Shown here: positions 7,172 through 40,395 of the stretch, in pieces
Numbering within the stretch: the stretch's first letter is position 1
Layout: each line of letters starts with the position of its first letter
Source: a virus
Virus record (IMG/VR): IMGVR_UViG_3300042887_000373
Span: 1-40,862 of that record
Strand: one strand, 5' to 3'
DNA length: 40,862 nucleotides
Notes under the pieces: generated by a model
The model's input: only the letters and a program-made list of their open reading frames with translations
Told to the model about the DNA's origin: nothing
The model's database searches: none
Program-made: the position numbers and the translations under genes

Positions 7172-8647
7172 ATGCAAGTACAATTTGTTGATGAAAAAGA
7201 TTTTGTAGAATACAAATTTAAAACTAAACCATACAAACATCAATTTGATGCTTTTATGATTAGTAAAGATAAAGAGAGTTATGCTCTTTTTATGGAACAA
7301 GGAACTGGTAAATCTAAAGTTATAATAGATAATATCGCTTATCTATTTCGTAAAGGAAGTATTGACACCGTTGTAATAGCAGCACCTAAAGGTGTATATC
7401 GTAACTGGATAGCTTCTGAATATGAAACTCATATGCCAGATGATGTGAAAGAATTTACAAGACTTCAGATATGGTCTCCCGCTGAAACTATTTCTAATAT
7501 AGATAATCTAGTTGAGTTTTTAAAAGAAAGTAATAAGTTAAGATTTTTTGTAGTTAATATAGAAGCTCTATCTACAGAGAAAGGAAAGAACTACGTTCAT
7601 AGATTATTAAATACAGGTAAATCATTTTTTGTAATAGATGAAAGTTCTAATATAAAGAATAGAACTGCAAGAAGAACTAAAAATTGTCATAAATTATATA
7701 AACTAGCAAAGTATAGAAGAATATTAACTGGAACTCCAGTGACCCAAGGTCCGTTAGACTTATGGTCTCAAATGCATTTTTTAGATCCATACATATTACA
7801 AAATAGTTTTTATGCTTATCGTAATACGTTTTGTGTAATTAGAAGAAGAAGATTAACTACTCATACTTTTGATGAAGTAGTAGGTTATCAAAGATTAGAA
7901 GAACTTCAAGAAATTTTAAAGCCATATAGTTTTAGAGTAACTAAGGAAGAGTGTTTAGATTTACCTCCTAAAGTAAAAGTAATAAGACATGTAGAAATGA
8001 CACCTGAACAAAAACGAATGTATGTGACTTTAAAAAAGAGAGCTATAGTAGAGCTTGAACGTGAAAAGATAGTGTCAGCACCTCTTATAATCACACGAAT
8101 TTTAAGATTACAGCAGATATTATGTGGTTTTATTAAATATGATAATGGAGTTGAAGAAGTAATAGAAGGTGAAAATCCTCGTATACAAGAACTATTAGAT
8201 GTTATTGAAGAGACACAAGGTAATATAATTATATGGGCTACTTATAGAAACTCAATTAAATTGATCCGTGATTCAATAGCTAAAGTATATGGAGCTAGTA
8301 AAGTTGCAACTTTCTTTGGTGATACTGAATCTGAAGAAAGACAAGAGATAGTTAAGAATTTTCAAAGTGGAGAAATAAGATTTTTCGTAGGTCAACCTAG
8401 AACAGGTGGTTATGGTATAACATTAACTAATGCTAAAACTGTAATTTACTTTAATAATACTTATGATATGGAAGTAAGACTACAATCTGAAGATAGAGCA
8501 CACCGAATAGGTCAAAAAGATAAAGTTACTTATATAGACTTCGTGTGTCCTAATACTTTAGATGAAAAAATTATTCAAGTATTAAATAATAAGAAAAAAC
8601 TAGCTGACGAAATAACTGGAGATAAGTGGAAGCAATTATTTGCTTAA
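7172..8647 (+). CDS. SNF2-type superfamily 2 helicase/ATPase
   Basis: The only plus-strand gene encodes a 491-residue SNF2-family ATPase. Motifs in order are motif I EQGTGKSK (residues 42-49), motif Ia APKGVYRNW, motif II DESS in place of DEAH (156-159), motif III LTGTP (185-189), motif V GGYGITLTNA and motif VI QSEDRAHRIGQ (438-448). No chromatin-reader or nuclease domain is fused, so it is a minimal double-RecA translocase. Such proteins occur in many marine and T4-like phages and may remodel protein-DNA complexes or assist replication and recombination. Its orientation, own promoter region and tail-to-tail four-base overlap with the lysis genes suggest independent timing. The ATG has no strong Shine-Dalgarno, only AGAAAG upstream. 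Confidence 0.9.
   Translation: MQVQFVDEKDFVEYKFKTKPYKHQFDAFMISKDKESYALFMEQGTGKSKVIIDNIAYLFRKGSIDTVVIAAPKGVYRNWIASEYETHMPDDVKEFTRLQIWSPAETISNIDNLVEFLKESNKLRFFVVNIEALSTEKGKNYVHRLLNTGKSFFVIDESSNIKNRTARRTKNCHKLYKLAKYRRILTGTPVTQGPLDLWSQMHFLDPYILQNSFYAYRNTFCVIRRRRLTTHTFDEVVGYQRLEELQEILKPYSFRVTKEECLDLPPKVKVIRHVEMTPEQKRMYVTLKKRAIVELEREKIVSAPLIITRILRLQQILCGFIKYDNGVEEVIEGENPRIQELLDVIEETQGNIIIWATYRNSIKLIRDSIAKVYGASKVATFFGDTESEERQEIVKNFQSGEIRFFVGQPRTGGYGITLTNAKTVIYFNNTYDMEVRLQSEDRAHRIGQKDKVTYIDFVCPNTLDEKIIQVLNNKKKLADEITGDKWKQLFA
8630..8645. terminator. Weak hairpin at the convergent junction
   Basis: AAGCAA, a TTAT loop and TTGCTT form a 6-bp stem spanning the stop of the SNF2 gene. T-rich sequence (AATTCTTAATTTC) follows on the plus strand. 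It sits where rightward and leftward transcription meet, so a weak terminator is plausible, but the stem is short. Confidence 0.3.
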
Positions 8648-8856
8648 TTCTTAATTTCTTTAATACGTTTAACTCCGTGTTTATCTACTTCTACAATAGC
8701 TTCGATTTGTTTACATTCCATTCGCAAAGTATTTGATGTACCATCACGTTCTACTTTACGTTTTTGTTCTAAACATTCCGCAAGATTAGCTTTAGGAGAA
8801 TAATTTTCTAACTTTCCATTAAGAAACATTAATAAAGCAAATATTATTTCACCCAT
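8644..8856 (-). CDS. Small membrane-anchored or secreted protein (70 aa)
   Basis: The product begins with a short hydrophobic segment, MGEIIFALLMFLNG, that could be a signal anchor. A charged region with two cysteines (LAECLEQ and MECKQI) follows. It is the last gene of the leftward lysis/tail transcription unit and starts with a one-base overlap of the upstream stop (TAATG). The Cys pair and N-terminal hydrophobic segment after holin and coiled-coil genes are compatible with a small periplasmic lysis accessory such as an outer spanin-like protein. No lipobox is evident, so that role is weakly supported. Otherwise it is a hypothetical protein. Confidence 0.6.
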   Translation of the reverse strand: MGEIIFALLMFLNGKLENYSPKANLAECLEQKRKVERDGTSNTLRMECKQIEAIVEVDKHGVKRIKEIKN

Positions 8857-23432: not shown

Positions 23433-24212
23433 CTAGTTAATATTTGTCCAATTTTCAGTATTTGTACTTGTATTTATATTATCCCAGAATTTTAGAGTAG
23501 CCACACTTACATTAGCAGTTTGACCTGTTATAGTTAAAAAGTTGTTAGAATTAGCTATAACATTTCCTACAAAAGTAGTAGCTCCGCTACCGGTTAAAGA
23601 AAGAACTTGATCAGCTCTAATAGCTATCGTATTAGCTGTTACATTAGCCTGGGATCCAGTAATAGGAATAATATTATTTAATACTAAAGTAATATTTCCT
23701 AAATTTGTGTTTAATTCAAATCCTACTATATCAACACTATTAGCAGTTCCTGTTGCAACATTTCCTACAGATACATCTAAAGCTATTTCAGCACCAGTTT
23801 GAATTGTAATAGATCCACCAGCTTGAATTGAAATTAATCCTAAATTTGCATTTAATGATTGTCCACTAATAGTAACATTAGCTTCATTAAGTACAACTAC
23901 ATTATTTAAAGATATATTTGCTAATTGACCACTAATAGAAATATTAGCATTAGCAATTGTGATTATATTACCTACACTTGCTGTAAGTTGAGTTAAAGTT
24001 GAAATTGCAAAAACATTTCCAGTTCCTGTAAGAACTGCACCATGACCTATGTTCCAGGCACCACTCGACCATTCATCGGCGTTCCAGTAACCACCAAAAT
24101 CTATTTGAGTTTCTAATTCTTGACCAGTTAAAATAGCAAGAGCATCTGGATCTGTATTCCATGCTCCTACATTCCATCCATCTCTACTCCAACCGACTTG
24201 TGCTGTTGGCAT
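23433..24212 (-). CDS. Beta-repeat virion protein with Trp-rich N-terminus (259 aa)
   Basis: The N-terminus has two copies of a Trp-rich unit (WSRDGWNVGAWN, WNADEWSSGAWN). After that come about seven or eight degenerate repeats of 22-24 residues with the pattern ITGQ-x-x-N-x-x-x-G-N-x-x-x-I, for example NISISGQLANISLNNVVV and FLTITGQTANVSVATLKF. Repeats of this length suggest a beta-solenoid or stacked strand fold. The end returns to FWDNINTSTNTENWTNIN. It lies between head-tail and fiber genes, so a tail fiber or needle component is likely. The start codon is within a hairpin (24209-24232). Confidence 0.6.
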   Translation of the reverse strand: MPTAQVGWSRDGWNVGAWNTDPDALAILTGQELETQIDFGGYWNADEWSSGAWNIGHGAVLTGTGNVFAISTLTQLTASVGNIITIANANISISGQLANISLNNVVVLNEANVTISGQSLNANLGLISIQAGGSITIQTGAEIALDVSVGNVATGTANSVDIVGFELNTNLGNITLVLNNIIPITGSQANVTANTIAIRADQVLSLTGSGATTFVGNVIANSNNFLTITGQTANVSVATLKFWDNINTSTNTENWTNIN

Positions 24213-24232
24213 AGGAGTTTACCTCTCTATGC
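24209..24232 (-). promoter_or_regulatory. Hairpin enclosing the start codon of the beta-repeat gene
   Basis: GCATAG and GAG on one side pair with CTC and CTATGC on the other, with a 5-nt loop and one bulged base. On the minus strand the far arm holds the ATG (24212-24210) and the near arm holds the AGAGG ribosome binding site and the end of the upstream gene (stop 24229-24227). Ribosomes finishing the upstream gene would open it, which suggests translational coupling. Confidence 0.45.
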
Positions 24233-24652
24233 TATACGAATTAATCCGTTAGTAGCATCAGCGTTTGGAAACTGTAGCTCGAATGTTCCGTTCGTAGATG
24301 TTTTAACACCACCAAAATCTAAAACTGCAATTGCAGCATTGCTTAAACTATTATTATAAATTAAAGCAGCTTGTGCAGAAATAGTTGCATTAGCAAATGT
24401 AACATTATCAGCATCAAATATTGCCGTAGTTCCGTCAACAGTAATTGCAACGTTAGTTAATGTAGCTCCACCAGTTGTGTAATTAGTTCCACTTGATGAA
24501 ATTTCATTACTTGTAGTGTACGCAGTAGTGTTTTGATCTAAAGTAGCAAGGTTTGAATATAAAGCACACTTTAATGTACTTGCAACTAAATTTGCTCCTG
24601 GCTTCATTAAGTCTTCCTTAAATGTAACCGTGATAGCTTGTGTAATCGGCAT
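24227..24652 (-). CDS. Tail structural protein (141 aa)
   Basis: The product begins MPITQAITVTFKEDLMKPGANL and is strand-rich, with few charges and many Thr, Ala and Asn. The phrases LKCALYSNLATLDQNTTAYT and ATLTNVAITVDGTTAIFDAD are typical of small beta-sandwich virion proteins of marine phages. The C-terminus is FPNADATNGLIRIA. It is separated from the upstream adaptor by three bases. No enzymatic motif is present. A decoration or fiber-connector role is inferred from composition and position. Confidence 0.62.
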   Translation of the reverse strand: MPITQAITVTFKEDLMKPGANLVASTLKCALYSNLATLDQNTTAYTTSNEISSSGTNYTTGGATLTNVAITVDGTTAIFDADNVTFANATISAQAALIYNNSLSNAAIAVLDFGGVKTSTNGTFELQFPNADATNGLIRIA

Positions 24653-24655
24653 TTT

Positions 24656-25315
24656 TTATTGTCCTCCAGTTAAAGTGTTTTCACCAAGTGGGCTACCAGG
24701 AAATTTAAAGTCCGTTCTTCTTCTTCTACGAGCTTCATTATTAATGGCAGTCACACTCTCAACATATTTTTTGTTGTAGATATTATAGTCTTCCATGTTC
24801 TTTGTAAAGATATTTGCTTCAGATAAACAACCATATAAAAGAGCATCTGGAGTATTAGTAGTATAATAATTAGTAGTATTTGTATTAGATAATGGATTAA
24901 TTCTTCCTTGATATCCTAGTTGAATAGAATAAGCTTGATCCGGTGTAGGAGCTAAATATAACGTATTATCATCAAAATTAGCAAAATATTTAGGTTGAGC
25001 TGTTATACTTACATTAGGCCAATATTCTTGTATAAATTCTAAAGGTTTAATTTCTAAAAAAGAAACATTACCGCTTACTGTTATATTAACATAGTTAATA
25101 AGCATAGGTTCTATAGCTGATGGTAAAGTTACAAATCTATCTCCTGAATAAACTGAAGAAGTCATATTTTGATTAAATCCTACTGGATCAATATCTCTTG
25201 AAAGTCTAAACTCTGTGTTATCAATAAATGTGTCTAATTGATTTGTAAAGTCAGTTCCATTATTTTCAGCCCAGAGTTGTATATCACTCTTTAGACTTGA
25301 GTACGTCATTGGCAT
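24656..25315 (-). CDS. Head-tail adaptor-like protein (219 aa)
   Basis: MTYSSLKSDIQLWAENNGTDF followed by DTFIDNTEFRLSRDID is a helical opening seen in SU10/T7-type adaptor proteins of podoviruses. The middle has the strand block FLEIKPLEFIQEYWP and LYLAPTPDQAYSIQLGYQG. Near the end are ALLYGCLSEANIFTKNMED and an Arg-rich NNEARRRRRTDF. Adaptors of this type form a ring below the portal that connects to the tail. The 5' end overlaps the glycosyltransferase gene by 32 bases. An in-frame ATG six bases downstream is an alternative start. Confidence 0.65.
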   Translation of the reverse strand: MPMTYSSLKSDIQLWAENNGTDFTNQLDTFIDNTEFRLSRDIDPVGFNQNMTSSVYSGDRFVTLPSAIEPMLINYVNITVSGNVSFLEIKPLEFIQEYWPNVSITAQPKYFANFDDNTLYLAPTPDQAYSIQLGYQGRINPLSNTNTTNYYTTNTPDALLYGCLSEANIFTKNMEDYNIYNKKYVESVTAINNEARRRRRTDFKFPGSPLGENTLTGGQ

Positions 25316-26120
25316 CTTTTTTATCTCCTGGTGCTACAGTAAATTTAGACCATGCATATCCTTTAAATGCGTAAGTTCCCCAATGAGTAAGAGGACTTAA
25401 TAAATCAGCGTATATTTTACCACCAATCTTTTGCCACATTCTACAAAAAGCATAGTCTTCACTTAAGTATCTATTACTTTTTTCATCAATAATACAGTCA
25501 AAAAATGCATATGTATTTTTAGAAGTAAATCTTTCAGTATTTATGATCTGATCACTAGTATATTTAAGATTAGGATAAGCTTTCATCATTTTATAAAAGA
25601 CTTCTTTTTTAATACACATAAAACCTGTAGCTGCATCTAATACTTCTACAAATCCAGCTTTCATTTGAATATCTCTAGGATTTGCAAAATTTAAATTATA
25701 TCCTAAAGATTTTTGCTCCATATTTTCAAAATCTCCTTTTTTAGCAAGTTCTACAACATGGTTCCAATCTACAGATTTTCTAGCATATACTCCACAAGCT
25801 ATATCGTGTCCTGAATCTAATAATCTCCAAATATTTTTACCTTCAAAACCTATATCGGCATCTATAAACATTAAATGTGTAAATCTATCGTGTGGATCTG
25901 ACTCACATAAATCTAAAAATTGTGCAACTAAAGTATTTCTAGCTCTAGTAACTAAACTTTCATTTCCCATAGTATTTAATACCATGTGAAAATCATTTTT
26001 AGCGGCTACTGATTGAGTTTGAATAATTCCATGAAGATAACCTTCATTGATCATTCCACCATAACATGGTGTTGCAATTACAACGCCATATTTTTTCTTT
26101 TTATTTAATTCATCACTCAT
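25284..26120 (-). CDS. GT-A-type glycosyltransferase, tail-region copy (278 aa)
   Basis: The protein starts KKYGVVIATPCYGGMINEGY, a nucleotide-sugar-binding first strand. It has ARNTLVAQFL, then the metal-binding D-x-D in FIDADIGF (Asp87, Asp89), and later LSEDYAFCRMW (residues 219-229), the usual acceptor/base region. It should transfer a sugar from a nucleotide donor to an unknown acceptor. It overlaps the genes on both sides. Phage glycosyltransferases within the tail module could glycosylate virion proteins, host surface sugars or DNA. It is unrelated in primary sequence to the one at 39319-40173 beyond the fold. Confidence 0.75.
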   Translation of the reverse strand: MSDELNKKKKYGVVIATPCYGGMINEGYLHGIIQTQSVAAKNDFHMVLNTMGNESLVTRARNTLVAQFLDLCESDPHDRFTHLMFIDADIGFEGKNIWRLLDSGHDIACGVYARKSVDWNHVVELAKKGDFENMEQKSLGYNLNFANPRDIQMKAGFVEVLDAATGFMCIKKEVFYKMMKAYPNLKYTSDQIINTERFTSKNTYAFFDCIIDEKSNRYLSEDYAFCRMWQKIGGKIYADLLSPLTHWGTYAFKGYAWSKFTVAPGDKKDANDVLKSKE

Positions 26121-26512
26121 GAAGTGACTACTGTAACACTTCCTAGAGATAATGATAACAAATTTGTTGTAGCTTCTGCAACTCCTACCGCTAACACAGC
26201 TCCTGATGTATTAGGGTATATAGTCTGAATCTGATCTGGAACACCACCTATGAGTGAATTTGGGACATTTAAACGTGCATTTTCTAATGTTGTAGCATCA
26301 GTAAAATAAGTTAAATCAAGTTGTGGATGTTTTGGTTCATATTCAGAATCATGCACAAAAAGTCCATTCCATTCAAATAACATTTCATTATGAGGAAATT
26401 CTAATCCACTTCTATCTGATATAGTTCTTCCATATCTACCACTTGAAAATTTAGTGTAAGGTGCTCTATGTGGTTTTTTAGTTCTTTCACTATTAGAATT
26501 TGCGCCAGCCAT
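26117..26512 (-). CDS. Conserved phage protein of unknown function (131 aa)
   Basis: The N-terminal third is basic (SERTKKPHRAPYTKFSSGRY). It is followed by RSGLEFPHNEMLFEWNGLFVH and EYEPKHPQLDL, a phrase I associate with conserved structural-region proteins of marine phages. The end is hydrophobic and strand-like (AVLAVGVAEATTNLLSLSL). It overlaps the glycosyltransferase start by four bases (ATGA) and the upstream adaptor stop by one. The conserved His, Asn and Cys-free core show no known catalytic pattern. A minor neck or tail role is inferred from position. Confidence 0.62.
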   Translation of the reverse strand: MAGANSNSERTKKPHRAPYTKFSSGRYGRTISDRSGLEFPHNEMLFEWNGLFVHDSEYEPKHPQLDLTYFTDATTLENARLNVPNSLIGGVPDQIQTIYPNTSGAVLAVGVAEATTNLLSLSLGSVTVVTS

Positions 26513-27207
26513 TATATTGACCTTCCATATCCTGGAACTATTCTAGTTGTAGGAGTAGAGTCCGCAGATTGTGCTCTTGAAAATGCTTCTTCATAATCTA
26601 ATTTTAATTCAGCTCTCATATTACCATCTATGCCTGGTCTTTTTTTACCTAAAAAATAAGCTAGTCCAGAACACATTGCTTCAATCCAACGAGAAGGTAC
26701 ATCTATATTTTGATCTACTCCATTTACAGTATTTGCAGTTATATCTTCTATTCTTCTAATTCTCCAATATCTCATTACATCTGTAGAATTAATAGGAGTT
26801 GGATATAAAAATAAAACTGGTGTAGATAATCTTTGTAAAAAAAATTGAGTAGGTAAAGATTGAGTTGATTTAACTCCAATAGATTCATAATCTCCTAGAG
26901 CTAAACGTGTCATAAAATAATCAGTATTAGTTCCACCTTCATTTCTTCTAATACTTGATTCAACAATATCAATAGTATCAGCGGGAAGTGTATATTGATT
27001 TGTTCCTTGAACTAATGATAAAGTTTCTAATTCTACAGTCCATTGATTGTAACCACGATTGGCCCAATCTGTAAACATTATATTTAAACTTCTTCTAGCG
27101 GAACGAACATCATAACCTAATATTGGATCACCTCCAATACGATCATATGCTTCTTGAATTACTTCAGTTACATTTAACTGAAAATTAGCTGAACCCGATA
27201 GTGCCAT
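26512..27207 (-). CDS. Head-tail connector / tail tube A-like protein (231 aa)
   Basis: The sequence NVTEVIQEAYDRIGGDPILGYD followed by SARRSLNIMFTDWANRGYNQW (shown in two parts) marks the helical opening of a podovirus connector. Strand blocks QYTLPADTIDIVESSIRR and PVLFLYPTPINS come next, then a helical end with RWIEAMCSGLAYFLGKKRPG. This resembles gp4/gp11-type tail tubular A proteins, which dock below the portal. With the 219-residue adaptor it makes two related connector genes near each other. The gap to the preceding gene is six bases. Confidence 0.68.
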   Translation of the reverse strand: MALSGSANFQLNVTEVIQEAYDRIGGDPILGYDVRSARRSLNIMFTDWANRGYNQWTVELETLSLVQGTNQYTLPADTIDIVESSIRRNEGGTNTDYFMTRLALGDYESIGVKSTQSLPTQFFLQRLSTPVLFLYPTPINSTDVMRYWRIRRIEDITANTVNGVDQNIDVPSRWIEAMCSGLAYFLGKKRPGIDGNMRAELKLDYEEAFSRAQSADSTPTTRIVPGYGRSI

Positions 27208-27213
27208 AAAGAC

Positions 27214-27498
27214 CTACGCAAAGAATACAGTTAATCCTGCAACGTTAGCTAAATTAGCTTGAAGTTTAGTTCCAAATTTTATACCTTCATCTGGTATACT
27301 AATAGATATAGGACCTGATGCAACACTTGCTGCTGTAGTAATACTAAATATAGTTACATTATCATCTGCAAATGTAACAGTTCCAGCATTAGCAGTTGGA
27401 GTTGCTATAAATCCTTTTAATCTAATAGGTCCACCAAATAAAACAACATTTGATCCTGTAGTAGTAGTACTATTTGCTTTTACGTCTGAACCTGCCAT
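27214..27498 (-). CDS. Small structural protein (94 aa)
   Basis: The product is short, Thr/Val/Ala rich and nearly uncharged, with strand-like blocks TGSNVVLFGGPIRLKGFIAT and VTFADDNVTIFSITTAASV. These suggest a single beta-sandwich. A strong AGGAGG ribosome binding site precedes the ATG by five bases, which fits high expression. It lies in the neck region between a 192-residue protein and the connector. A decoration or head-completion role is plausible, but no family is recognised. Confidence 0.58.
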   Translation of the reverse strand: MAGSDVKANSTTTTGSNVVLFGGPIRLKGFIATPTANAGTVTFADDNVTIFSITTAASVASGPISISIPDEGIKFGTKLQANLANVAGLTVFFA

Positions 27499-27507
27499 AT
27501 TTCCTCC

Positions 27508-28086
27508 TTATAATAGATTATATTTTTTTAAGTCTTGTAATAATAGACTAACTCTGTCTTCATTAACAGCTGGTTTTCGTCTAATAGATGATAGTATATC
27601 ATTAGTATATTCACCTGATAAATCTAAAGATCCAACATTTAAATTCTTATCTAATCTACTATCAAAAGCAAAATCTCTTCCAGAACTGACTCCTCCACCT
27701 GTCACAGGTTTAGAATCTGAGAATTTATTAATAACTTTTTCTATATCTGATAATTTTTTATCAAGAGTTTGTTCTTGTTTTTGACCAATTATATAATCTG
27801 AACCTGTTTTAATTTCTCCTTTTCCTGCTGGAGCATCTTCTCTTTCTCCAAGAAGCCTTTGTTCTTCTGATGGTTTATATTCTTCTTTAGCTTTTTCAAA
27901 TTCTTCAAGTTGTTTAGTTTTACTATCTTTAAATAAATCACTTATACTAGAAGAAGCTCTATCTTTTGTTTCTGAAATTTTTGTAGAAATATCTGTATTA
28001 GATAAATTGGCAAACGTACTAGATAATTTACTACCGATATTTCCTATATCATTAAAATAATTTAAAAATCCGTATTCGTTTTCCAT
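27508..28086 (-). CDS. Hypothetical protein in head-tail region (192 aa)
   Basis: The product begins MENEYGFLNYFNDIGNIGSKL and is mainly polar and helical, rich in Lys, Glu, Asp and Ser. It has coiled-coil-like KTKQLEEFEKAKEEYKPSEEQ and a helix LSDIEKVINKF. The C-terminus is Arg/Lys-rich (SIRRKPAVNEDRVSLLLQDL). No Shine-Dalgarno is evident before the ATG, only AAAAG, and the strong UUCG hairpin (28098-28115) lies just upstream. It may be a minor internal or assembly protein; family unknown. Confidence 0.58.
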   Translation of the reverse strand: MENEYGFLNYFNDIGNIGSKLSSTFANLSNTDISTKISETKDRASSSISDLFKDSKTKQLEEFEKAKEEYKPSEEQRLLGEREDAPAGKGEIKTGSDYIIGQKQEQTLDKKLSDIEKVINKFSDSKPVTGGGVSSGRDFAFDSRLDKNLNVGSLDLSGEYTNDILSSIRRKPAVNEDRVSLLLQDLKKYNLL

Positions 28087-28097
28087 AGTCTTTTAAT

Positions 28098-28115
28098 GAG
28101 GGCCCGAAGGCCCTC
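28098..28115 (-). terminator. UUCG-tetraloop hairpin after the decoration gene
   Basis: On the minus strand GAGGGCC-TTCG-GGCCCTC forms a GC-rich 7-bp stem closed by the very stable C(UUCG)G tetraloop. It begins 8 bases after the stop of the gene at 28123. No T-run follows (CATTAAAAG), so it may act as an incomplete terminator or as a 3' stabiliser of the capsid/decoration message. Confidence 0.7.
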
Positions 28116-28122
28116 TAATTAA

Positions 28123-28587
28123 TTACGCTAAGTTTCTATCTTGTAAATAGTAAACAGTAACAACGGCAGAGCCAGTTGTACCATCACCAGTTCCAGCTTG
28201 AAATACAGCAGTAAGTCTTGAATCTGAAGTTCCAACATCGAAAAATGCTGAAGAAATAATAGCAGCATTTACAGCTGTTAGTCTTCCAGTAACTTTTGCA
28301 TTTGATACAGCAATATAAGCTGTAGCATTTGAAGCATTACCAACAGAAACGTTTGCAGCACCAGTATCATTAGATACTACTGTAACATCAGCAAATACTT
28401 CTACTACTTGTGAGTTAGCAGGTATTACCGCAACTGTAGTGTTAGCAGTCGCTCCCGTAAGAGCAACAACTTTACTTTGACTCATTAATACAAAACCTGT
28501 GTTTTGTATATTTTCGCCAACTGTTGTGCCTGTAGTGTCCTTAATCGTTCCCGCTTTAATCGGTCCCGAAAATGTAGTTGTACCCAT
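28123..28587 (-). CDS. Probable capsid decoration or head fiber protein (154 aa)
   Basis: The product begins MGTTTFSGPIKAGTIKDTTG, an N-terminal phrase seen in head-associated proteins of marine podoviruses. Strand-rich blocks follow (VVALTGATANTTVAVIPANS, VVEVFADVTVVSND), and the end is GDGTTGSAVVTVYYLQDRN. It is almost free of charged residues in the core. The gene is directly downstream of the major capsid gene and its GGAGG ribosome binding site lies in a hairpin loop. Placement suggests an abundant virion protein. It could instead be a head-tail or whisker component. Confidence 0.65.
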   Translation of the reverse strand: MGTTTFSGPIKAGTIKDTTGTTVGENIQNTGFVLMSQSKVVALTGATANTTVAVIPANSQVVEVFADVTVVSNDTGAANVSVGNASNATAYIAVSNAKVTGRLTAVNAAIISSAFFDVGTSDSRLTAVFQAGTGDGTTGSAVVTVYYLQDRNLA

Positions 28588-28591
28588 ATGT

Positions 28592-28608
28592 CTATACCTC
28601 CAGTATAG
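28592..28608 (-). promoter_or_regulatory. Hairpin presenting the Shine-Dalgarno of the decoration gene in its loop
   Basis: On the minus strand CTATAC-TGGAG-GTATAG forms a 6-bp stem whose loop plus first stem base carries GGAGG. The ATG at 28587-28585 follows eight or nine bases after GGAGG. Immediately upstream at 28610-28621 is CTGC-GAAA-GCAG, a small GNRA-tetraloop hairpin. The stems are seen; a regulatory effect is inferred. Confidence 0.5.
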
Positions 28609-28634
28609 TCTGCTTTCGCAGTCGTTTGAGTTAA

Positions 28635-28662
28635 ATACTAGGCGTATTGCTACGCCTAGTAT
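28635..28662 (-). terminator. GCAA-tetraloop hairpin after the major capsid gene
   Basis: The perfect 12-bp stem ATACTAGGCGTA / TACGCCTAGTAT encloses loop TTGC, read as GCAA (a GNRA tetraloop) on the minus strand. It lies 11 bases after the capsid stop. Downstream is TTAACTC, with only a short T stretch, so partial termination or protection of the capsid mRNA 3' end is likely. Confidence 0.7.
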
Positions 28663-28672
28663 AGATTAGTTA

Positions 28673-29581
28673 TTAAGCAGCTCCTTCTGAACCGTAGATA
28701 GCTCTCCAGTCTGTGAAACCGAAAGAATATCTTTCTCTAACTTTGTATCTTAAATTACCAGTTTCAAAATCGCCTTCAACAGCTTTTTTGATTGGTGATC
28801 TTACAAAGTGTTTCATTCCATCTGGGCAATCAGTCATAATGAAATATGCATCAGGATCAGTTAATCGCTGGTTAACAGCAACTCCGCCCGGAATCATACC
28901 CATTTGTTTCATTGCATTGATGTCATTATCAGCAGTCGCAGGTCTTAAATTAGATTTAAGAATACGCTCAGCAACGAACACCAATTGAGGTGGAACGATT
29001 AGTTTTTGTCCAGTCAATGCTATTGGAATACTTCTATCATCAACCGCAGTCGAGATTTGAATCAATAAACTTTCAAGAGAAGTTTCTGATAAATCAGCTG
29101 GTGTTGATAAAATGTTAGAAGAAGTTCCACCACCGCCTAGTGGGTGAGAAGCTGACAATAAAGCTTGTCCGTCTCCACCTACTGAAGTAGTAGTTGCATT
29201 GTTAAGGATATTTGCACCTTTGATTTCTTTAGTATGTTGCATTGATCTTGCTAGTGCACGAGCATACTTAGCACCTAAAGATCCGTATAAACCATCTTCT
29301 TCAGCTTCCTCAGTTATTGAGAATGCTAAAGCTATAGTTTCATGTACGTATCTCGCAGTGTAACCCTCTTTTCCACTATCGTAAGATATTGCAGCACCTT
29401 CAGCTTTAGTTGGTGCAGCTCCGAAGCCGATCATTTGTACATCTTCTTCAAAAGCTTTCATTGATTGCTCAATAGAGTAAATATCTCTCCATTGTTCTGG
29501 GTATCTATCATACTCCATAGCAAACACAGTATTTAAACCAAGATTAAGCTGCTTGGTAAACAGCGCCCTATTTAGTGCCAT
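28673..29581 (-). CDS. Major capsid protein (HK97 fold, 302 aa)
   Basis: The protein has the helical start MALNRALFTKQLNLGLNTVF, a mid-section with the E-loop-like GYTARYVHETIALAFSITEE, and ARALARSMQHTKEIKGANIL. Near the end come LIVPPQLVFVAERIL and a closing RYKVRERYSFGFTDWRAIYG typical of HK97-type P-domain ends in Mu-like and marine phage capsids. GGAG 8 bases before the ATG is a good ribosome binding site. Its position after scaffold and before the decoration gene is standard. G+C is visibly higher than neighbours, as is usual for highly expressed phage genes. No separate protease gene is seen. Confidence 0.85.
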   Translation of the reverse strand: MALNRALFTKQLNLGLNTVFAMEYDRYPEQWRDIYSIEQSMKAFEEDVQMIGFGAAPTKAEGAAISYDSGKEGYTARYVHETIALAFSITEEAEEDGLYGSLGAKYARALARSMQHTKEIKGANILNNATTTSVGGDGQALLSASHPLGGGGTSSNILSTPADLSETSLESLLIQISTAVDDRSIPIALTGQKLIVPPQLVFVAERILKSNLRPATADNDINAMKQMGMIPGGVAVNQRLTDPDAYFIMTDCPDGMKHFVRSPIKKAVEGDFETGNLRYKVRERYSFGFTDWRAIYGSEGAA

Positions 29582-29593
29582 GTGTTAATCTCC

Positions 29594-30160
29594 TTAAATA
29601 CCGCTAGCACGAGTACCATATAGATGGTTATTAATAACCACTTCTAATTTAGCATCCGCACCTACAGCGTTATCTGGCGCATCGACAAGTCTTAGTATTC
29701 TTAAAGGTAACGCAGTCGTACCTAAAGATGCTAAGTTAGCTTCTTGTTGAGATCCACCAAAAGTTGTTTCACCAGCAGTAAATAAAACATTGCAAAGCTC
29801 ACCTACGTTAGCATTTGCGAATGTACCAGAACCCTGGACTTCATATGTTATGTTTGGATCATCATATACAAATGCAGTCGCAGCTGTATTAGCTTTAATT
29901 GCAGTTGAAGCTGTCCAAACTTTGGAGAATTTTACATCTCCACTTGCTCTGTCGATGTATTGAACACCATAGAACACACCTAGTGCGTTCGATGTATTTG
30001 TTCCAATACCTACAGTTCCATCAGATAGTAATGTTACTAAATCACCAGAAAATAGTGAAGTTGCATAAGCATTAGCTATAGGATAGGCCTGAGGTCTAAC
30101 AACACCGCCAGTTAAATGCCTAAGGGGCACAAACCCATTAGGCGCATCAGTATTAGCCAT
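29594..30160 (-). CDS. Head-associated structural protein (188 aa)
   Basis: The sequence MANTDAPNGFVPLRHLTGGV leads to ANAYATSLFSGDLVTLLSDG, a pattern common in proteins encoded next to the major capsid gene of marine podoviruses. It is strand-rich, with ASGDVKFSKVWTAST and a short Asp/Ala-rich loop near the end, and has no enzymatic signature. A capsid decoration or scaffold-associated role is likely. Its ribosome binding site AAGGA is displayed in the loop of a perfect 8-bp hairpin (30161-30181). The gap to the capsid gene is 12 bases. Confidence 0.68.
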   Translation of the reverse strand: MANTDAPNGFVPLRHLTGGVVRPQAYPIANAYATSLFSGDLVTLLSDGTVGIGTNTSNALGVFYGVQYIDRASGDVKFSKVWTASTAIKANTAATAFVYDDPNITYEVQGSGTFANANVGELCNVLFTAGETTFGGSQQEANLASLGTTALPLRILRLVDAPDNAVGADAKLEVVINNHLYGTRASGI

Positions 30161-30181
30161 TTTATAACTCCTTGTTATAAA
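30161..30181 (-). promoter_or_regulatory. Hairpin presenting a Shine-Dalgarno in its loop
   Basis: On the minus strand TTTATAAC-AAGGA-GTTATAAA gives a perfect 8-bp stem with the ribosome binding site as the 5-nt loop. The ATG (30160-30158) follows the stem directly. The geometry puts the anti-SD target exposed on a stem and the start codon at its base. Confidence 0.55.
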
Positions 30182-30646: not shown

Positions 30647-31597
30647 CTATAGTTGTCCTGTATCGCCAAAGTTTTTTACTTCTTTAGCAAAACGTTTTAG
30701 TGCCGCTTCATCATTAATGTCGATACCGAATTTTCTCGCAGTATCTAAATCATCAGAAGTAAGCTTAACTCGGTTACTGTCGATTCCTTTTTTACGAGAA
30801 ACCCCAGCAACAGGAGATTGCACTCTGTTAGCTTTTTGTACCACATTTTTGTCAGTTTGAGAAGAACTTTCTTCAGATTTATTAAAATGAGGTAAACTAG
30901 AAGATTTTAACCTTTTAGTCATTTCATTATAATACTCCGGATCATTTACATCCCAACCTTCCTCTGTCAGTTCAGCATCAATTCCATAAGCCATAGCTGT
31001 TTCTTTACGATAGCCAGGTTTATTGAACCAAGTACTGTTTTCTTTAACCCAATCAGCTGCTAAAGGAGGTACTTGTTTTCTAGCATCAGCTTTTTTAGGT
31101 ATTTCAGAAGCATATTCTTGCGTCTTATTCATCTGATTACGAATATCAGCCATATTTTCATACAACTTGATCTGTTCATCAGTATTTCCTTCCTCAATAG
31201 CTTGTTTAAGCTTTTGAGAAACTTGAGAATATTGACTAGATAAAGATTTACTTGCCAAGTCAAGAGTTTTTTTCTCCATATTTGACAATCTATCTTCTAG
31301 TTCAACTATTCTTTGTTCAGCTTCAGCTCGTTTAGCAACTTCTTTTTGAATTCGCTTACGAACCTTCTCTGAATAAGGAAGTTCATCTGAATAAGGCGGA
31401 ACGTTTGGTTTAGTTTCAACCTTTTCTTCGATTTTAGGTTGTTCTATTTTTTCTTCTGCTTTCTGTTCTACATTTTCTTCTTTGTAGTCGTTCATCAGAG
31501 CTTCAAGTGGATTTTGAGGAACTTCTATTTCTTTTTCAGAATTAGGTTCATCTAATTTCACTTCAATCTCTTTCTTTGTTTCTTCTTCGTTAGGCAT
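30647..31597 (-). CDS. Probable scaffolding protein (316 aa)
   Basis: The protein is highly charged, with an acidic Glu/Lys-rich first 70 residues, then a long coiled coil (about residues 80-150, KRAEAEQRIVELEDRLSNME). A WVKENSTWFNKPGY block follows, with a helical end LDTARKFGIDINDEAALKRF. Acidic N-terminus, coiled coil and helical C-terminus match phage capsid scaffolds such as those of T7 and P22. It lies before the head genes and capsid. The GGAG ribosome binding site is 6-7 bases from the ATG. No protease triad is visible. Confidence 0.72.
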   Translation of the reverse strand: MPNEEETKKEIEVKLDEPNSEKEIEVPQNPLEALMNDYKEENVEQKAEEKIEQPKIEEKVETKPNVPPYSDELPYSEKVRKRIQKEVAKRAEAEQRIVELEDRLSNMEKKTLDLASKSLSSQYSQVSQKLKQAIEEGNTDEQIKLYENMADIRNQMNKTQEYASEIPKKADARKQVPPLAADWVKENSTWFNKPGYRKETAMAYGIDAELTEEGWDVNDPEYYNEMTKRLKSSSLPHFNKSEESSSQTDKNVVQKANRVQSPVAGVSRKKGIDSNRVKLTSDDLDTARKFGIDINDEAALKRFAKEVKNFGDTGQL

Positions 31598-31642
31598 AGT
31601 TATCTCCTATGTTGGCGTTATTCTTAACTCAATAACGTATAT

Positions 31643-40178: not shown

Positions 40179-40206
40179 TACCCTAGAGTTTATAAGCTCT
40201 AGGGTA
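40179..40206 (-). promoter_or_regulatory. Hairpin sequestering the glycosyltransferase Shine-Dalgarno
   Basis: On the minus strand TACCCTAGAG pairs with CTCTAGGGTA (10 perfect bp, 8-nt loop). The second arm carries AGGG, seven bases before the ATG at 40173. No T-run follows the hairpin, so a terminator is unlikely; control of translation or of RNA processing is the better reading. Confidence 0.55.
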
Positions 40207-40221
40207 AACAAAAAAGTTTAT

Positions 40222-40395
40222 CTATTCTTCGTCAGTATCATCATTGTCCGAATCAAAATCATCTTGATCCTCGGATCCTGAATCAGTATCGGCATTATAC
40301 TTATCTTCTAAGTCGTTCAGAAGATCATCTATTTCAGCTTGTTTGTCTCTAATGCTTTCGATAATGTTTTCGAAAGATTTTTTCTTTTTAGCCAT
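40222..40395 (-). CDS. Acidic-tailed small protein (57 aa)
   Basis: I place the start at ATG 40393-40395 because AGAGG lies five bases upstream; an upstream in-frame ATG at 40428 lacks a site. The product is MAKKKKSFENIIESIRDKQA with a short coiled coil (EIDDLLNDLEDKY), followed by an acidic, probably disordered tail of Asp, Glu and Ser. Basic head plus acidic tail suggests a small scaffold, DNA mimic or assembly factor. The gene is followed by the hairpin at 40179-40206. Confidence 0.6.
   Translation of the reverse strand: MAKKKKSFENIIESIRDKQAEIDDLLNDLEDKYNADTDSGSEDQDDFDSDNDDTDEE

Follow-up and report, generated by a model that had tools for sequence, protein, structure and literature searches.

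A conserved three-GAC RNA over the ribosome-binding site of a putative phage cement gene

What does the folded RNA do that lies between the major capsid protein (MCP) gene and the next gene in the IMG/VR virus record IMGVR_UViG_3300042887_000373, and is it the same device as the hairpins at other gene starts of this phage of an aquatic bacterium? The whole stretch of 40,862 bases, here called the window, has a GC content of 31.7% and carries nearly every gene on the minus strand. A preliminary description had noted four hairpins at translation starts taken to be those of virion genes, at 30161, 28592, 24209 and 40179, and had proposed one general mechanism that sets protein dosage or senses temperature or upstream translation. 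We find all four inverted repeats as described. They are not one repeated device, and the hairpin at 28592-28608 is merely one helix of a larger and widely conserved RNA that had been overlooked. This RNA, at 28582-28631, probably folds in cis over the ribosome-binding site of a putative capsid cement gene and gates its translation, a function that we infer.

The three-GAC RNA at the start of the cement gene

The element has the following parts:

28582-28631, minus strand: whole three-GAC RNA over the cement-gene ribosome-binding site, with helices P1, P2 and P3 in a three-way junction (covariance-model match, junction folds)
Within 28582-28631, minus strand: P1, (A)CUC(A)/(U)GGG(U)
28621-28623, minus strand: GAC1, found in all 74 loci whose spacer is complete
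28610-28621, minus strand: P2, CUGC-GAAA-GCAG, closed by the C of GAC1 and the G of GAC2 (covariation)
28608-28610, minus strand: GAC2
28592-28608, minus strand: P3, the hairpin described before, CUAUAC-UGGAG-GUAUAG, with the Shine-Dalgarno (SD) sequence in its loop, closed by the C of GAC2 and the G of GAC3 (covariation)
28590-28592, minus strand: GAC3

The triplets are thus tied into the fold, as C1:G2 closes P2, C2:G3 closes P3 and G1:C3 faces P1, with one unpaired A per strand. In the type found in the window the P3 loop holds the SD, and P1 has the AUG at its base.

Single sequences were compared with dinucleotide shuffles at 56 starts of the window. The hairpin at 28592 gave p = 0.013 and a folding z of -2.29; the values are 0.017 and -0.07 for 30161, 0.030 and -2.70 for 24209, and <0.003 and -5.31 for 40179. 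Folding against shuffles is therefore strong for 40179 and weak to moderate at the other three sites. Because the single-sequence signal is modest for these three, conservation in relatives was taken as decisive.

Relatives of the MCP are encoded on several hundred IMG/VR stretches. We examined the spacer between the MCP gene and the next gene in MCP-anchored relatives without a structural filter, which gave 74 complete spacers, and the order GAC, hairpin, GAC, SD hairpin, GAC, AUGGG is present in all 74 of these near relatives. Among the 27 distinct sequences of this set, 99.6% of the cells of P2 and P3 are paired and five of the nine pairs have changed on both sides (3/4 in P2, 2/5 in P3). 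Their covariation is 0.308 vs 0.110 +/- 0.018 when shuffled (0/500), and slid controls drop to 22-56% paired cells. On the MCP tree the P2 arm state switches six times, as does the third pair of P3 (UA/CG), where both sides change together each time; sequence counts here and below stand for non-independent events, and parsimony switches may include recombination. The three-way junction is also the fold of 41/41 distinct sequences in a wider set, which was gathered with a filter demanding short stems. A covariance model built from the relatives has one match in the window (64.6 bits, 28583-28630), and a search with filters off found no second copy of the element there.

Three neighbours of the element are needed for its interpretation:

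28673-29581, minus strand: MCP gene, Mu gpT-like (PHROG 371, Pfam PF25209/PF10124), upstream neighbour of the three-GAC RNA
28635-28662, minus strand: hairpin between the MCP stop and the three-GAC RNA, with a 12-bp stem and a GCAA loop
28123-28587, minus strand: gene after the element, for a putative capsid cement (decoration) protein of 154 aa with the N-terminal tag MGTTTFSGP (AlphaFold model, PDB fold matches)

The MCP has kin in the Pelagibacter phages HTVC023P/HTVC027P and the Roseobacter phages CRP-901/902. The hairpin at 28635-28662 occupies the spot where HTVC and CRP relatives have ordinary U-tailed terminators. It has no U-tract in the clade of the window, and in some relatives its loop is UUCG. 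The spot is possibly a terminator turned into a read-through or processing site.

The cement protein itself has no match in Pfam or PHROGs. An AlphaFold model based on 28 relatives (pLDDT 79) is a beta sandwich in which the N-terminal tag is uncertain, and its top PDB fold matches are the cyanophage Pam1 capsid and the KHP30/KHP40 capsid/cement structures (E 1.5e-5 to 2.2e-4). Judged by this model, the product of 28123-28587 is a predicted cement protein. The homologue in DSL-LC04 is annotated 'cement protein', and CRP-902 has the same downstream gene family. A tag M(A/G)xTTFxGP is common to the cement proteins, and the remainder differs widely among phages. We also observed that the cement bodies (28123-28587 and loci L340-L412) are strongly diverged or of other types, as if swapped behind a conserved leader RNA and tag.

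A family with one core and several contacts

Statements on the described RNA Mu-gpT-DE (RF03012) rest on its Rfam model. Like the window element, Mu-gpT-DE follows a gpT-like MCP (that of the window matches PF10124, Mu-like_gpT), ends at the next AUG, carries GAC triplets around P2 and a CCC-like 5' end, and has an inner hairpin between two GACs, which in the window reads GAC-UGC.GAAA.GCA-GAC. There are also differences. The window falls below the Rfam gathering threshold, its SD lies in the P3 hairpin between GAC2 and GAC3, and its outer helix P1 is CUC(A)/(U)GGG instead of CCUG/CAGG. No Rfam family has a match at E<=5 in the whole window; a single GibS match at E 4.5 in a short stretch was taken as chance.

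CRP-902 and 11 of 20 CRP-like loci have an RF03012 match at the same position, with scores of 60-72 bits in L085, L340 and others against a gathering threshold of 49 bits. These matches end at the AUG of the next gene, and the element always adjoins the cement-gene AUG. The GAC triple itself is present in 78/80 CRP-902-like loci; no match was found in L357 and L406 of this set, both of which have short or interrupted downstream sequence. Mu-gpT-DE types have a P1 of CC(U)UG/CA(A)GG that takes in the SD, and this helix covaries, as does P2. We find that L3, the loop joining GAC2 to GAC3, to which the Rfam structure assigns no partner, complements and pairs with the start codon. L3 follows codon 2 in 58/58 loci, with GCC accompanying AUGGC and CCC accompanying AUGGG; there are seven joint switches on the MCP tree, and 0/2000 permutations are as good.

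The GAC core is likewise found in 78/80 HTVC023P-like loci, the remaining two having too little or no upstream sequence. Here the partner of L3 is CUAUAC, CUAGG or UUAGG, which coincides with the SD or precedes it, and the pairing beside the SD in HTVC and alternative types is matched by 0/1000 permutations. L3 forms a pseudoknot of this sort, reaching the SD or the bases immediately 5' of it, in the HTVC023P, CRP-alternative, DSL-LC04 and ct7L0027 types. In HTVC types a segment of an upstream helix (H0) additionally pairs with the P2 loop, with two compensatory changes, ACUAUAC/GUAUAGU to ACUGUAU/AUACAGU and CCUAG/CUAGG to ACUAG/CUAGU. DSL-LC04 and ct7L0027, whose MCPs are about 59% and about 40% identical to that of the window, follow the same plan, and in DSL-LC04 the G1:C3 pair is swapped for U:A (by eye). 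Locus L412 is an intermediate, as it combines the P2 of the window with a Mu-gpT-DE-like P1 (CCUUG/CAAGG) and is matched by the window covariance model. A TATAAT-like box lies directly upstream of the element in HTVC types (L413-L492), which would place the first helix at the 5' end of the transcript.

From shared position, the GAC core and the intermediate L412 we argue, short of proof by a joint model, that the branches are homologous. On these sequence grounds the window element appears to be a diverged member of a family of which Mu-gpT-DE is one described branch. The three-GAC family is wide and largely undescribed, its HTVC023P-type and other pseudoknotted versions being undescribed as well, and two papers on pelagiphages and roseophages contain no mention of the RNA element. 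Among distant gpT phages the element was not seen in Planktothrix, Alcaligenes, Caulobacter and ct2G2228, and in the Caulobacter phage a homing endonuclease comes after the MCP.

A proposed translation gate and its alternatives

The evidence for a gate is the structure, conservation, position and covariation of the element, together with the model-based fold of the cement protein. The fold would lower initiation at the cement gene until something opens the structure, and a conserved GAC core would be joined to a changing contact with the initiation site, which is the SD, the AUG or both in every type that we studied. The invariant GAC triplets with their unpaired A's suggest a putative binding site, and the most likely opener or stabiliser would be a virion protein (cement or capsid) that binds the GAC junction. 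Our preferred guess, offered tentatively and with a hypothetical partner, is that such binding creates a feedback by which the amount of cement keeps pace with the supply of capsid. The stop codon of the MCP gene is 86 nt away on the upstream side, and a hairpin intervenes; translation of the MCP is thus unlikely to be coupled directly to that of the cement gene, and sensing of upstream translation, as proposed in the preliminary description, does not suit this site.

The T4 gene 32 pseudoknot and gene 43 hairpin are autogenous translational operators of tailed phages (PMC3014915). The present RNA resembles them as a structure over the initiation site of a phage gene, with pseudoknots in the HTVC and Mu-gpT-DE types. 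It differs in its three-GAC junction fold, in serving a virion gene and in that the binding protein is hypothetical here.

Several points weigh against a gate of this kind. Its direction and its trans partner are inferred, and the partner is hypothetical. In the window type the fold leaves part of the SD exposed and could raise initiation instead. P1 of this type has 3-5 bp, some of them constrained by the AUG-GGG codons. The P1 and L3:AUG pairings of Mu-gpT-DE types make up a pseudoknot, or may be mutually exclusive. The loci are non-independent, and the switches may reflect recombination carrying L3 and the gene together. Furthermore, the Rfam model RF03012 does not recognise the window (E<=5), nor the shorter stretch 28500-28760 (E<=10).

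The alternative that survives best is an unregulated one, in which the RNA would enhance initiation or stabilise the 5' end of the mRNA by presenting the SD in a loop where it is kept from pairing elsewhere. Most of the window-type SD is indeed in the loop of P3, and at 30161 an AU-rich hairpin displays its SD likewise. However, the SD or AUG is paired and not displayed in the Mu-gpT-DE and HTVC027P types, and three conserved GAC triplets exceed the needs of simple display, and we consider this explanation unlikely.

It is less probable still that the element merely adjoins the cement gene and acts as an independent small RNA or is a product of processing. Rfam gives the type of Mu-gpT-DE as Gene; sRNA, and HTVC types have a terminator before their TATAAT-like box, such that the element may begin a transcript. 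On the other hand, the end of the element is always the AUG, no terminator stands between element and gene, and L3 pairs with the AUG and codon 2, tracks codon-2 changes and has its partners at the SD in other types.

The structures could also be DNA-level palindromes at gene junctions, serving as protein-binding or recombination sites. Genes are exchanged behind the conserved hairpin at 24209 and cement bodies behind a conserved N-terminus, as might be expected of such sites, but the structures sit strictly on SD, AUG and stop, and this, together with GNRA-like loops, covariation in the pseudoknots and compensatory changes specific to each arm, points to RNA and makes the explanation improbable. 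An RNA thermometer, the temperature sensing of the preliminary description, has no support and is very unlikely: aquatic phages meet changing temperature and the SD or AUG is in stems, but the stems at 24209 and 28592 are predicted (from energies only) to be stable at 5-37 C, no FourU or ROSE-like motif was seen by eye, and the conserved triplets and pseudoknots would be left unexplained.

Other structured starts and what they mean

The remaining structured starts are listed here, including a fifth site (31595-31637) that had been overlooked:

24209-24232, minus strand: putative coupling hairpin GCAUAG(A)GAG-GUAAA-CUC-CUAUGC, with the stop UAG (24227-24229) in the 5' arm, the SD in the 5' arm and loop and the AUG (24210-24212) in the 3' arm
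31595-31611, minus strand: hairpin CAUAG-GAGAUAA-CUAUG with SD and AUG inside, at the start of the scaffold-like gene 30647-31597
31616-31637, minus strand: a further, covarying hairpin CGUUAU..AUAACG on the upstream side of that start
30161-30181, minus strand: hairpin UUUAUAAC-AAGGA-GUUAUAAA followed by AUG, with the SD in the loop
40177-40208, minus strand: 12-bp hairpin UUUACCCUAGAG-N8-CUCUAGGGUAGA before the glycosyltransferase AUG, with a weak SD (AGGG) in the 3' arm

The hairpin at 24209 is separate from the three-GAC RNA and, going by its anatomy, is quite probably a translational-coupling hairpin that is opened by ribosomes finishing the upstream gene. Stop (UAA/UAG), SD and AUG share one stem in 74/75 relatives, 96.1% of its cells are paired, and covariation is 0.227 vs 0.148 +/- 0.020 when shuffled (0/500), with five switches of the stop/arm pair. 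The last sense codon before the stop is GCA in 75/75, a codon that makes up 47% of the Ala codons of that gene. We read the site as coupling by RNA unfolding because its anatomy matches the published model (PMC12548453): SD and AUG are sequestered, the upstream stop lies in the stem, and stop and start are 14 nt apart. The hairpin is ordinary in kind, with stop, SD and AUG in a single stem of 8-9 bp and a downstream gene that is exchanged behind it. Sensing of upstream translation thus fits here, since the stop of the upstream gene is inside the stem. The tail-region gene that follows (23433-24212) has W/G-rich N-terminal repeats, and other protein types are substituted behind the constant hairpin in loci L191-L270.

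At the fifth site, in front of a gene for a charged protein, the SD/AUG hairpin is invariant and both hairpins are kept in all relatives seen; the upstream one is 100% paired in eight distinct sequences, with covariation of 0.234 vs 0.080 +/- 0.031 (0/500). The hairpin at 30161 is present in the clade of the window and one sister clade, is absent or broken in the rest, and shows no covariation among relatives. That at 40179 is kept in about two dozen close relatives only, where it is 100% paired with a single compensatory pair in six distinct sequences (shuffles 83/500). It was rejected as a U-tailed terminator, as no U-tract follows it on either strand. Upstream of it, at 40197-40222, close relatives keep a mini-hairpin UAAAC-UUUUUU-GUUUA whose GUUUA has an alternative partner UAAAC. 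The start of a small gene at 8644-8856 lies within a hairpin CAUUAC..GUAAUG (shuffle p<0.003).

Covariation in relatives therefore bears out structured virion-gene starts at 24209, 28592 and the fifth site, is limited to one compensatory pair at 40179 and fails at 30161. Present evidence does not place the glycosyltransferase among the virion genes, and its start drops out of the virion-gene cases. The idea of one general mechanism has to be given up, as the anatomy differs by site, most starts of the window are unstructured and 30161 is clade-limited. A rule for all starts is ruled out by the 56 tested, of which nine reach p<=0.05 (2.8 expected, mean z -0.43), a mild excess. Structured starts are employed selectively, by cement, scaffold-like and tail-region genes, and not genome-wide.

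Some of the phages in the three-GAC family, which ranges over pelagiphages, roseophages and lake phages, are among the most abundant viruses of the ocean. To our knowledge, few cases are documented in which structured leaders control the translation of tailed-phage virion proteins. We think it possible, rather than probable, that phages have in the three-GAC junction a translational operator of a new class, in which one core would be recognised by a single trans factor (the cement protein, the capsid protein or a host factor) and linked to the SD or AUG through at least four architectures. The orphan structured RNA Mu-gpT-DE, now one branch of a larger family, has gained a testable function. 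If the operator class is real, it would set the stoichiometry of cement to capsid across a large group of phages, marine and freshwater, and would account for this orphan RNA.

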